DNA from: Planctomycetota bacterium
Lineage (GTDB): Bacteria > Planctomycetota > Planctomycetia > Pirellulales > Thermoguttaceae
Direction of reading: 5' to 3'
NCBI GenBank assembly: GCA_029550925.1
Contig: JAKPGL010000078.1
Coordinates: 1 to 43,244 of the forward strand
Length of the DNA: 43,244 nucleotides
Shown: in pieces, positions 33,463 through 36,763 of the stretch
Position numbering within the stretch: the stretch's first letter is position 1
How the letters are laid out: each line of letters opens with the position of its first letter
Translations under genes and position numbers: made by a program
The notes under the pieces: model-generated
What the model saw: the letters and a program-made list of their open reading frames with translations, nothing else
The model's database searches: none
Told to the model about the DNA's origin: nothing

Positions 33463-34215
33463 CTACCCAGAGAACAACGGCGTTTCCGAACGTTCCGAAT
33501 CCTGGCCGCTCTTCTGGCCAAGATACAAACTGGCGATTCCGAAACTTAACGGCTGAGCAGAGACGCCAGTCAGCCCGACCGCTTCCATCCGCTGGGTCCA
33601 ATACTGCTGCGGCGGAAACTCTCCCACACTGGCCGGAAGATAATGGTACGCCTCAAACCGATTGGGGGCCGCTGCCTGGCCGATCCTCGGCAACACCCAC
33701 CGAAAATACCAACTGTAGATCGTCCGCAGCAGAGAAGGCCGCGGCATGGAAAATTCCAAAATCACCACCCAGCCGCCCGGTCGGCAAACCCGGACCATCT
33801 CCTCGAGCGCCCTTTGCGGGTCCTGGATGTTCCGCAGGCCAAACGCCACACAGACGATCTGAAACAGGTCTGCTGGGAACGGCAGCGCCATGGCGTCGGC
33901 TTCGACCAGACGGACGCCGTGGGCGCGGAGGCGTCGGCATTTTTCCTTGGCCCGCTGGAGCATGGGCCGACAGAAATCCGCTCCTACCACGGGCGCTGTC
34001 CCTCGACCCGCCCGCCAATAGGCCAGGGCCAGATCGGCGGTTCCTGTGCAAATGTCCAGTATCGGCCGGTCCGGCGCAGGCGGCGCCCGACGAACCGCCG
34101 TCCGCCGCCACCAATGATCTACCCCCAACGAAAGCAGATGATTCAAAAAGTCGTAGCGGGGTGCAATCTGGCCAAACATCTCCCGAACCCGCTCGCCGGA
34201 TTTATCCACAGGCAT
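33463..34215 (-). CDS. ubiE: Demethylmenaquinone methyltransferase
   Basis: Also called MenG, this SAM-dependent enzyme adds the last methyl group to menaquinone. The 250-residue protein has 'MFGQIAPRYDFLNHLLSLGV', SAM motif I 'ILDICTGTADLAL' (about 52-64), 'VEADAMALPFPADLF' and 'VCVAFGLRNIQDP', all UbiE/MenG signatures. ATG 34215 is preceded by AAAGGAG at 8 nt. The frame continues upstream to 34401, across a repeat, without similarity. It is the first gene of the minus-strand menaquinone run. Confidence 0.95.
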   Translation of the reverse strand: MPVDKSGERVREMFGQIAPRYDFLNHLLSLGVDHWWRRTAVRRAPPAPDRPILDICTGTADLALAYWRAGRGTAPVVGADFCRPMLQRAKEKCRRLRAHGVRLVEADAMALPFPADLFQIVCVAFGLRNIQDPQRALEEMVRVCRPGGWVVILEFSMPRPSLLRTIYSWYFRWVLPRIGQAAAPNRFEAYHYLPASVGEFPPQQYWTQRMEAVGLTGVSAQPLSFGIASLYLGQKSGQDSERSETPLFSG

Positions 34216-34597
34216 GGGGAGTGCTCCTTTTGTCGGGAAAAACAAATCCTCGTGTCCGGCTCGCCATATCCGAGGAATCTGCTGTTCCTCGGCGGGCTGG
34301 GATCCAGAAAGGCCATTCCCGTTTGCGCAGGAATCCAGGCTCTTGGGGGTCTGTACCTTTAGGATTCCCTTGGCGCGGGGAGGACAAAGCGGCCGCTTCA
34401 TGGTTCCCGGGACTACTGCTTCCGCAGCAGGAACAGGTTGACTCCGTTTGGTTACGAAAACTCTAGCTCCTCAGGGGGGAATTTTAGGGTTTTTGGGGGT
34501 CCCTGGGGGTAGCTTTTTAGGGATTCTAGGATTATTATTAAGAGGAGAAAGCTTTCCGGTAGGGGGAAAAGGCGAAAAAAAATAAAAAATCTTGGGG
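34216..34597. other. Non-coding region between ubiE and the rho promoter
   Basis: The part near ubiE holds a CCGAGGAA/TTCCTCGG hairpin (about 34271-34292) and a REP-like half element (34311-34339). From 34470 the plus strand becomes purine-rich with long G and A runs. I find no gene, and no clear ubiE promoter. Confidence 0.45.
34311..34339. repeat. REP-like half element
   Basis: CATTCCCGTTTGCGCAGGAA followed by TCCAGG resembles the palindromic repeat at 2359-2433 and the widespread consensus CATTCCCGCGAAAGCGGGAA. It sits upstream of ubiE. Confidence 0.45.
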
Positions 34598-34626
34598 TTG
34601 CAAATCCGAAAACTCTGATGTATAAA
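34598..34626 (+). promoter_or_regulatory. rho: Sigma-70 promoter for the rho leader
   Basis: TTGCAA (34598-34603), a 17-nt spacer and TATAAA (34621-34626) form a near-consensus promoter. Transcription should start around 34633, about 580 nt before the rho start codon. Confidence 0.65.
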
Positions 34627-34632
34627 TTAAGG

Positions 34633-35195
34633 AGAAGCTGCTTGGCAGGAGTCATTCTCGGGGCGAGCGTGAGGGGAGACAGGGGGTGCTTTTAGGTGGT
34701 GCATGTTCCCCCCCGTCTGTGGAATGACTGAAAGCCGAAACCATTGACATAGCTCTGTCGTTCGATAAGATAAGGGCAACGTCCATTTCTGCCGAGCCCG
34801 CTAGCTGCTGAGGGTTTTCAAGCTGTCAGGAATGTTTGTTCCTCAGGCCTTTCCAGAGTATCCCTGCTGGGGGAATCCCTCAGACGCTTATCGAGTAGGG
34901 TGTCCCGCGGCTTTGTGGGGCCAAGAGCACTGAAGCCTGTTTAGGCTGCCTGATGGGCGGAGCCTGACGGGCATAAAGCAGAATTCCTTTGGCGGTGCAT
35001 GGAAGAGGGTTTTGTTGCTGCGCCGCCTCATCGGGAGTCTGCACAAAAAGCCTATTTGGATGTACCGAACCTCTCAAGGCACTCTCGGTCGTTGAAGCGT
35101 CGTTGCTATAGGACGCACGAGGGGATAGGCCGTTTTGGACTGGGCGGCGCCTGCCGTTAGTCTTTCTTCCTCGACGCCTTGGGGCCTCCGGCTAA
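34633..35195 (+). ncRNA. Putative structured leader RNA (or separate ncRNA) upstream of rho
   Basis: The stretch has no credible protein frame but many self-complementary pairs in order. AGTCATTC/GAATGACT (34650 and 34732 region) encloses CTCG/CGAG and an AGAC-GGGGG/CCCCC-GTCT stem. GACA/TGTC is near 34745. CTGAGG/CCTCAG encloses AGGAA/TTCCT (34808-34846). AGCCT/AGGCT is near 34935, and GGCGG/CCGCC spans 34991-35026. GCCTAT/ATAGGC (about 35050 and 35125) encloses CCGA/TCGG and CGTC/GACG hairpins. I looked for RNase P, tmRNA, SRP and common riboswitch signatures and found none. It may regulate rho expression or be an independent RNA; this is inferred from pairing by eye. Confidence 0.45.
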
Positions 35196-35210
35196 AAAGG
35201 TATTTTAAGT

Positions 35211-36473
35211 ATGAGCAGAAGGAAAAACTTTCGTTCCCGAGGCAAACTCTCTCTCCAAGGCAGCCGAAGACTGTCTTTTTCTCCTTCCCGAGATCGTTTG
35301 GGACCGTCGCAGGAGACCGAAGCGATGGACAACAATAATGGAGACCAACTTTCTCTGCATCCCGGTTCTGGGGTCTTGGAGTTGCATCCCAGCGGATACG
35401 GATTCTTGCGGGACCCAAATGCGGACTACGCCCGGCAAATGACCGATCCGTTTGTGCCGGCCAGCATGATTCAAAAATACGGTCTTCGCGAAGGCGTGCT
35501 GGTCAACGCCATGATCCAGCCGGGCCGACGGCAGCAGGGGCCTCGCGTTAAAGAAATCATCGACGTGGACGGCGTCAAACCGGAAGATTATAGAAACGTC
35601 AAACACTTTGACGAAAAAACCCCGATCAATCCCGAATTTTGGCTTCGGTTAGAGACCGGCCCCACCCCGCTGACGACCCGCGTGATGGACCTGCTGACGC
35701 CCTTGGGCAAAGGGCAACGGGCCTTGATCGTCGCACCGCCGCGGACCGGCAAAACCGTCTTGCTGCAACACATCAGCCAAGCCATCGCCACCAATTACCC
35801 CGAAATCAAACTCATTGTGCTGTTGATCGACGAACGTCCGGAAGAAGTTACCGATTTCCGCCGCAATGTGAAAGGCGAAGTGGTCGCCTCCAGTCTGGAC
35901 CGCGAAATCGAAAGCCATGTTCGCCTGTCCCAACTGGTCATCGAACGCTGCCGACGATTGGCCGAGATCGGACGGGACGTCTTTGTGGTCTTGGACTCGA
36001 TCACCCGGCTGGCCCGGGCGTTTAATAAATGGGTGGGCAATACCGGCCGGACCATGACCGGCGGCATCGACATCAAAGCCATGGACATCCCGAAAAAACT
36101 GTTCGCCACCGCACGGGTGTTTGAAGAAGGCGGGTCGCTCACCGTGGTCGGCACCGCCCTGATCGACACCGGCAGCCGAATGGACGAACTGATCTTCCAA
36201 GAATTCAAAGGCACCGGCAACATGGAATTGGTGTTGGACCGGCGCCTGGCCGACCGGAGAATCTGGCCCGCGATGGACATCACCCAGTCCGGCACGCGAC
36301 GCGAAGAAAAACTTCTACCGCCCGAGATGCTCCAGGCGGTTACCGTCTTGCGACGCACCCTGGCAACGATGAACCCGATCGACGCGATGGAACAACTGAC
36401 CGCCAAATTGGCCAAATTCAAATCCAACGCCGAGTTCCTGAAACTCATCAGCGGCGTCCAAGCGCTCACCTAA
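35211..36473 (+). CDS. rho: Transcription termination factor Rho
   Basis: Rho is the hexameric RNA helicase that ends transcription. The 420-residue form has a short basic N-terminus instead of the usual helical Rho_N domain. The RNA-binding cold-shock-like domain follows ('GVLELHPSGYGFLRDPNADY', about 54-125), then the RecA-type motor with Walker A 'APPRTGKT' (175-182), 'LLIDERPEEVTDFRR' and Walker B 'VFVVLDSITRLARAFN'. The Q/R-loop region 'GGIDIKAMDIPKKLFATAR' and 'DTGSRMDELIF' complete it. ATG 35211 has AAAAAGG upstream. ATG 35325 (MDNNNGDQ, with GGAG nine bases upstream) is a real alternative that would remove the basic tail. The very long leader fits autoregulation, which is known for rho in other bacteria. 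Confidence 0.96.
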   Translation: MSRRKNFRSRGKLSLQGSRRLSFSPSRDRLGPSQETEAMDNNNGDQLSLHPGSGVLELHPSGYGFLRDPNADYARQMTDPFVPASMIQKYGLREGVLVNAMIQPGRRQQGPRVKEIIDVDGVKPEDYRNVKHFDEKTPINPEFWLRLETGPTPLTTRVMDLLTPLGKGQRALIVAPPRTGKTVLLQHISQAIATNYPEIKLIVLLIDERPEEVTDFRRNVKGEVVASSLDREIESHVRLSQLVIERCRRLAEIGRDVFVVLDSITRLARAFNKWVGNTGRTMTGGIDIKAMDIPKKLFATARVFEEGGSLTVVGTALIDTGSRMDELIFQEFKGTGNMELVLDRRLADRRIWPAMDITQSGTRREEKLLPPEMLQAVTVLRRTLATMNPIDAMEQLTAKLAKFKSNAEFLKLISGVQALT

Positions 36474-36622: not shown

Positions 36623-36706
36623 GGAGGGTACGCGAATGGTTAGCAGCCACACTGGAAATGTGGTGCCCCAGTAATGGGGTTGCGGGTTCGAGTCCCGTGC
36701 CCTCCG
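36623..36706 (+). tRNA. tRNA-Ser (anticodon GGA)
   Basis: The 84-nt cloverleaf has acceptor GGAGGGT/GCCCTCC with one terminal T-G pair and discriminator G. The anticodon stem is CCACA/TGTGG around the loop CTGGAAA, giving anticodon GGA. A long class II variable arm CCCC-AGTAAT-GGGG is followed by the T-arm GCGGG-TTCGAGT-CCCGT. Both the variable arm and the discriminator base are as expected for serine. CCA is not encoded. A T-run (CTTTTTT) follows directly. Confidence 0.95.
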
Positions 36707-36763
36707 CTTTTTTAACAGCATCGTATTACCCGAGTGTACGGTTTTTCTTTAGAAGCTCTAATC

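Follow-up and report, generated by a model that had tools for sequence, protein, structure and literature searches.

This study revealed that the stretch preceding rho on a contig from a Planctomycetota bacterium (43,244 nucleotides, hereafter referred to as the window) is, judging from its sequence, very probably a leader that acts in cis on rho. The full reading that we favor is that the stretch represents the untranslated 5' leader of rho, that a proximal promoter, P2, is the main source of its transcripts and a distal one, P1, a further source, and that it is probably used for feedback attenuation; taken as a whole, this combination has about an even chance of being correct. A long rho leader had been put forward in the initial annotation, and an alignment of relatives supports such a leader, with relatives beyond the genus. 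What holds of that proposal is a leader under selection, whereas the widely conserved start is that of P2 rather than the one first suggested, and the overall fold is not exceptional.

The rho gene was found where it had been placed before, at positions 35211 to 36473 of the + strand, and encodes a transcription termination factor of 420 aa (NCBIfam NF006886, 478 bits against a cut-off of 315). Its likely ribosome-binding site, AAAAGG at 35195-35200 (+), was recognized from the sequence and is also present in both genus relatives. The earlier statement that the stretch contains no credible ORF was correct insofar as no long ORF fills it: the longest + strand ORFs upstream of rho measure 40, 53 and 67 aa, the last of which extends into rho, and no conserved ORF was seen by eye in the leader stretch of the genus alignment. 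On the other side of the leader, the best family matches of the listed ubiE ORF (33463-34401, - strand) begin near residues 65-72. The annotated ubiE start is probably too early, and its sequence suggests a true start near 34214 and a gap between ubiE and rho of about 1 kb. As a ubiE homologue was confined to the window's genus among the 85 loci searched, the leader travels with rho and not with ubiE. The gap also includes a 29-base stretch (34413-34441) which has a second genomic copy with 93% identity (G000:C42:54290-54318) and contains the inverted repeat CTGCTTCCGCAGCAG. On the 3' side of rho, the window carries a tRNA-Ser(GGA) at 36623-36707, and Rfam tRNA matches downstream of rho were also obtained for four of the 18 loci scanned (L007, L008, L009 and L012).

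The proximal promoter, P2 (TTGACA-N16-TAAGAT, 34744-34771, +), was absent from the initial description; it is closer to rho and more widely conserved than P1. Its consensus, TTGACA-N16-TA(A/T)NAT, also written TTGACA-N16-TAWNAT, emerged when the regions preceding rho in relatives were read. This consensus precedes rho in 43 of 69 loci, including the window, and was not found in the other 26; no occurrence was obtained in 20 shuffle rounds or on the opposite strand. The count covers 68 of the 80 fetched loci in addition to the window. Six loci with little upstream sequence were omitted (L042, L043, L048, L059, L080 and L081), and six further loci were omitted without good reason (L061, L062, L064, L065, L067 and L082). 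Spacings of 13 to 21 nt were scanned, the longest match being the one printed, and 42 of the 43 sites showed a spacing of 16, the remaining one a spacing of 21. P2 was the sole sigma70-type site reported by a sigma70 scan of 34400-35400, and its exact form is found once in the 4.9-Mb genome, at rho. In seven genomes, which were chosen because a rho leader had already been found in them, nine P2 sites were identified, seven of them at rho. Transcription from P2 would start at about 34778, about 145 nt downstream of the start proposed initially, which would give a leader of about 433 nt. The distance from the P2 -10 box to the ATG is 439 nt in the window and 294-857 nt in 44 other loci (looser P2 pattern). 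With this predicted start, a long untranslated leader lies between the promoter and rho.

The distal promoter, P1 (TTGCAA-N17-TATAAA, 34598-34626, +), is present as initially annotated and is kept in both same-genus genomes, with 78% and 83% identity over the stretch 34581-34632. A P1-like site (TTG[AC]NA-N16-18-TATANN) was observed 139-308 nt upstream of P2 in nine of the 43 P2 loci, including the window, this count being without shuffle control. Between P1 and P2, a hairpin formed by AGTCATTC/GAATGACT (34650-34729, +) has a stem that is identical in all three genus genomes, and the aligned fold of 34625-34736 in these genomes gave a z of -2.97, which was not reached in any of 150 shuffles.

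With regard to conservation within the genus, the whole intergenic stretch is retained in two other genomes (L006 and L007; Thermoguttaceae). Four-fold degenerate rho sites, which show 54% and 45% identity with the window when gaps are counted as mismatches, served as a neutral yardstick. Identities to the two relatives amounted to 85% and 79% for P2, 70% and 69% for a core described below, and 62% and 62% for the 5' element, whereas the spacer between ubiE and P1 is near neutral (46% and 49%). The junction of GCCTAT/ATAGGC (35050-35130) and the GC hairpin with a T-rich tail (35143-35158), which the initial annotation had highlighted, are both present in the sequence but are not conserved in relatives: the region containing them (35043-35197) shows 56% and 50% identity, about the level of four-fold sites. 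Likewise, the stretch had been described as highly foldable, but the minimum free energy of 34633-35210 (578 nt) equals that of shuffled sequences (z 0.05, with 51 of 100 shuffles folding as well).

The conserved helices, which were not part of the initial description, are located at 34935-35042. This genus core consists of two neighboring hairpin structures, in which 96.9% of cells are paired as compared to 36-43% when the pairing is slid. Helix A (34935-34972, +) was obtained from the aligned fold, with 95.2% of cells paired in the three sequences, and helices B and C (34978-35042, +) are formed by GCAGA..TTCCT / GGAGTCTGC enclosing GGCGGTGC/GCGCCGCC. Against column shuffles preserving gap and identity patterns, the aligned fold reached a z of -7.25 for 34931-35049 and of -5.25 for 34971-35083 (0 of 150 shuffles each), while the remaining 14 of the 17 segments folded in this way ranged from -1.69 to +0.35. 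As 26 of the 32 core pairs are invariant and one shows a double change, and as a shuffle of the 3' letters gives a similar outcome, the covariation control is not exceeded; support for the core consists of aligned-fold energy and conservation, not of covariation. A model of the core, R3, matched three of 296 genomes, all from the window's genus, once each and before rho, and a scan of 69 sources gave no match outside these. Searching 68 upstream regions with the sequence of the window's leader gave clear matches in the two genus members only, and a DNA search with the same leader matched three of 60 genomes, its own one included. The genus is recognized by neither of the two order-level models presented below, R1 and R2, and keeps P2 together with two short motifs of the 5' element.

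In relatives, P2 is followed by a block, mostly of 112-140 nt, which comprises TTCTGCC, a small hairpin, GGCCC/GGGCC and a closing motif, GCTTCTCGACC. The window contains a probable diverged copy of this 5' element at 34772-34895 (+), the offsets from P2 being similar to those of relatives. Its parts are TTCTGCC (34787-34793), GACGCTTATCGAG (34883-34895) and a long helix, CTGAGGG/CCCTCAG. TTCTGCC is found 15 nt after the P2 -10 box in the window and 14 nt after it in L015, and the element measures 124 nt. Its length ranges from 112 to 140 nt in 22 further sequences; the longer copies of L101 (175 nt) and L011 (191 nt) were not included in the alignment because of their long inserts. A covariance model built from ten 5' elements, R1, matched 20 of the 296 genomes searched in the order at E<=0.01, with one match each. 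Eighteen of these matches, with E<=1.0e-5, are all upstream of rho, 12 being new to the model and six its own; the loci of the remaining two, the weakest matches (E 0.004 and 0.009), lack rho. The 5' element of the window escapes R1, whose best score in the window, 10.9 bits, lies elsewhere; from this element, the window keeps only TTCTGCC, the GCTTATCGA motif and the spacing. The fold of the element is not better than that of shuffles (mean z of -0.30 for 25 sequences, +0.08 for the window), and none of 18 proposed pairs was significant in a tree-aware covariation test, in which some hp2 pairs had been placed out of register (3 and 7 of 25 paired). We regard the 5' element as a block of conserved sequence rather than as an established fold.

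The 3' element comprises an 11-bp hairpin, X (CGATTTTCGTC/GACGAGAATTG), followed by ACTTCTTGG and by a second, variable hairpin, Y. A model built from 16 sequences, R2, was searched in 396 genomes of the order and matched 61 of them at E<=0.01. The 22 best matches (E<=7.1e-6) come from 22 different genomes and all precede rho; 15 belong to the sequences used for the model, and seven are new. Rho was lacking from all eight fetched loci that came next in rank (E 3.3e-5 to 5.0e-4). This check covered the 30 fetched loci and, in addition, G029 (L100, E 6.1e-4), which is rho-linked; L137 and L009 are the same locus. Strong matches occur in four families (f1, f5, f14 and f19) and in 15 of the 119 genomes of the window's family. 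Of 397 genomes drawn from the class, one outside the order was matched (E 7.3e-5), at a locus that lacks rho. A P2-like site is located within 1200 nt upstream in all 24 distinct hairpin-element loci, eight of which had not been used for R2, and hairpin X is 141-195 nt from the ATG in the 23 loci with a recognizable start. Since the strong R2 matches are all before rho, with P2 upstream, the hairpin element is real and linked to rho. At these thresholds, each of the two order-level elements was detected in a minority of the order's genomes only (18 of 296 for R1 and 22 of 396 for R2), and R2 does not match the window's leader.

In 24 sequences aligned without reference to structure, 93.9% of cells are paired in X and 69.3% in Y, and for the two together 85.4% are paired, as compared to 37-52% when slid. 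X and Y contain 16 double-change cells, 12 of them in Y, against 8.3 after shuffling (2 of 500 as high), eight pairs with a double change against 4.6 (4 of 500), and 27 further pair types against 22.0 (2 of 500). The mean fold z is -3.08 for X and -1.56 for Y, in both cases for 24 sequences that are related and partly model-selected. The A9 seeds were chosen by eye, and seven of the 24 hairpin sequences are relatives of these seeds that were retrieved by R2, a model which favors paired sequences. A stricter test for covariation, of the kind suggested in the initial annotation, was negative: our own Python version of an R-scape-like, tree-aware null gave no significant pair in either element. 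For the 3' element, it was applied to 17 proposed pairs in one alignment and to 20 in a second, which included one opposite-strand row. This may be due to low variation in X and to misregister in Y. Hairpins X and Y are well supported.

Sites at which Rho loads are expected to be C-rich and G-poor. No such site was found in the window's leader, where the best C/G ratio over 78 nt is 1.26 as compared to 2.38 in the window's rho gene; a weak site may be present. G exceeds C in 43 of 45 rho leaders (loci with a P2-like site, looser pattern) as compared to 23 of 45 rho coding parts, a comparison made without a control set of other untranslated leaders.

A multi-helix leader ahead of a housekeeping gene could also be a metabolite riboswitch or belong to another known RNA family, but this is very improbable. 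In keeping with the initial annotation, which saw none of the common non-coding RNA classes, an Rfam search at gathering score gave no match in the window; in 18 related loci, the leaders were likewise unmatched, and the four matches obtained were all tRNAs. In addition, genus and relatives have little leader sequence in common, which would speak against a fixed ligand pocket. A permissive Rfam scan of the window returned RAGATH-32 at chance level (14.9 bits, the gathering score being 41.8), and the same scan of L015 gave no match. The initial alternative, a non-coding RNA gene of its own ahead of rho, agrees with the two promoters, the conservation and the single occurrence of the genus core per genome, but it fared less well than the leader and is unlikely. 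Strong matches always adjoin rho, on the same strand and at a near-constant distance to the ATG, and no strong copies were found elsewhere, although weak R2 matches without rho do occur (E 3.3e-5 to 5.0e-4). Terminator-like sites are not clearly beyond chance (three in 34400-35400, as compared to 1.7 +/- 1.4 in shuffles). It is because strong matches occur once per genome, next to rho and without a terminator clearly beyond chance that a separate RNA is disfavored. RNase P RNA is located elsewhere in the genome and is rejected as an identity. 6S RNA was not found in the genome by RF00013, which has no bearing on a diverged 6S RNA; the latter is disfavored by the position and by the lack of strong copies away from rho.

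Selection could also act on the promoters only, the remaining leader being long and idle. This would account for the facts that P1 and P2 are the best conserved parts, that 35043-35197 looks neutral, that the whole leader folds no better than average and that the covariation tests were negative. Nevertheless, it is improbable in view of the elements downstream of P2 in relatives, the z of the core and the retention of the helix of hairpin X. A rather unlikely reading, though one of more weight, is that the leader controls translation or mRNA stability without premature termination, by protecting the mRNA or by binding a protein, Rho or another. It agrees with the C-poor leaders and with the position of the two best conserved order-level elements, one of which is 5'-terminal and the other 141-195 nt ahead of the ATG, on either side of a variable middle. 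However, the ribosome-binding site of the window is unpaired in the centroid fold and, in the minimum free energy fold, only partly paired, with the far 5' end, so that sequestration is not clear. No protein partner of this leader is known to us.

Feedback attenuation appears to be the likeliest single mechanism by analogy, followed by control of translation or stability, although its own probability falls somewhat short of even. According to the attenuation reading, rho would be transcribed mainly from P2, with a start near 34778, and also from P1, and the leader would act in cis to set the level of Rho. As a stretch that is not covered by ribosomes is one on which free Rho can load and stop the polymerase, the long ribosome-free stretch between promoter and start codon would allow free Rho to load and, when Rho is plentiful, the loaded Rho would stop RNA polymerase within the leader. 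The G-rich, C-poor and structured nature of the leader would keep the Rho site weak and restrict the response to high Rho. More tentatively, the leader may represent a new family of rho leader RNAs, with conserved ends and an exchangeable middle, acting as a sensor of Rho activity in planctomycetes. It would then be an untranslated, deliberately poor Rho substrate, transcribed from a promoter that has no second exact copy in the window's genome, and the genus core (34935-35042) could be a lineage-specific sensing module that replaces the hairpin element.

Rho sets the transcription termination background, and in few bacteria is the control of its own level understood in detail. With a conserved promoter, exact coordinates and models that can be searched, this control becomes testable in planctomycetes, and the present work adds RNA elements which are absent from the Rfam copy used. 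Among the matches listed in a literature search that left most subscription papers outside, no title or abstract dealt with a planctomycete rho leader.

The Pseudomon-Rho motif (RF01720) was presented by Weinberg 2010 (PMC2864571, Table 1) as probably an RNA, certainly cis-regulatory and probably not a riboswitch. It resembles the elements described here in being conserved and structured; its name refers to rho, and its authors considered it cis-regulatory. It was, however, reported in Pseudomonas, and neither the window nor the 18 related rho loci match RF01720 at the Rfam gathering threshold. In Salmonella, the rho leader is bound by the sRNA SraL (Silva 2019, as cited in PMC6582626) and would likewise be a site of controlled premature termination, but no sRNA partner is known for the planctomycete leader. 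Autoregulation of rho outside proteobacteria is indicated for B. subtilis by the title of Ingham 1999, cited in PMC6582626. Attenuation of rho in its own leader is, according to the relevant statements of PMC6582626, established in E. coli (Barik 1985 and Matsumoto 1986, as cited there) and reported for other bacteria. In contrast to the E. coli leader, the planctomycete leader belongs to another phylum, is C-poor and has a conserved promoter and helices. Both nevertheless comprise an untranslated stretch between the promoter and rho, and a similar regulatory logic is possible.
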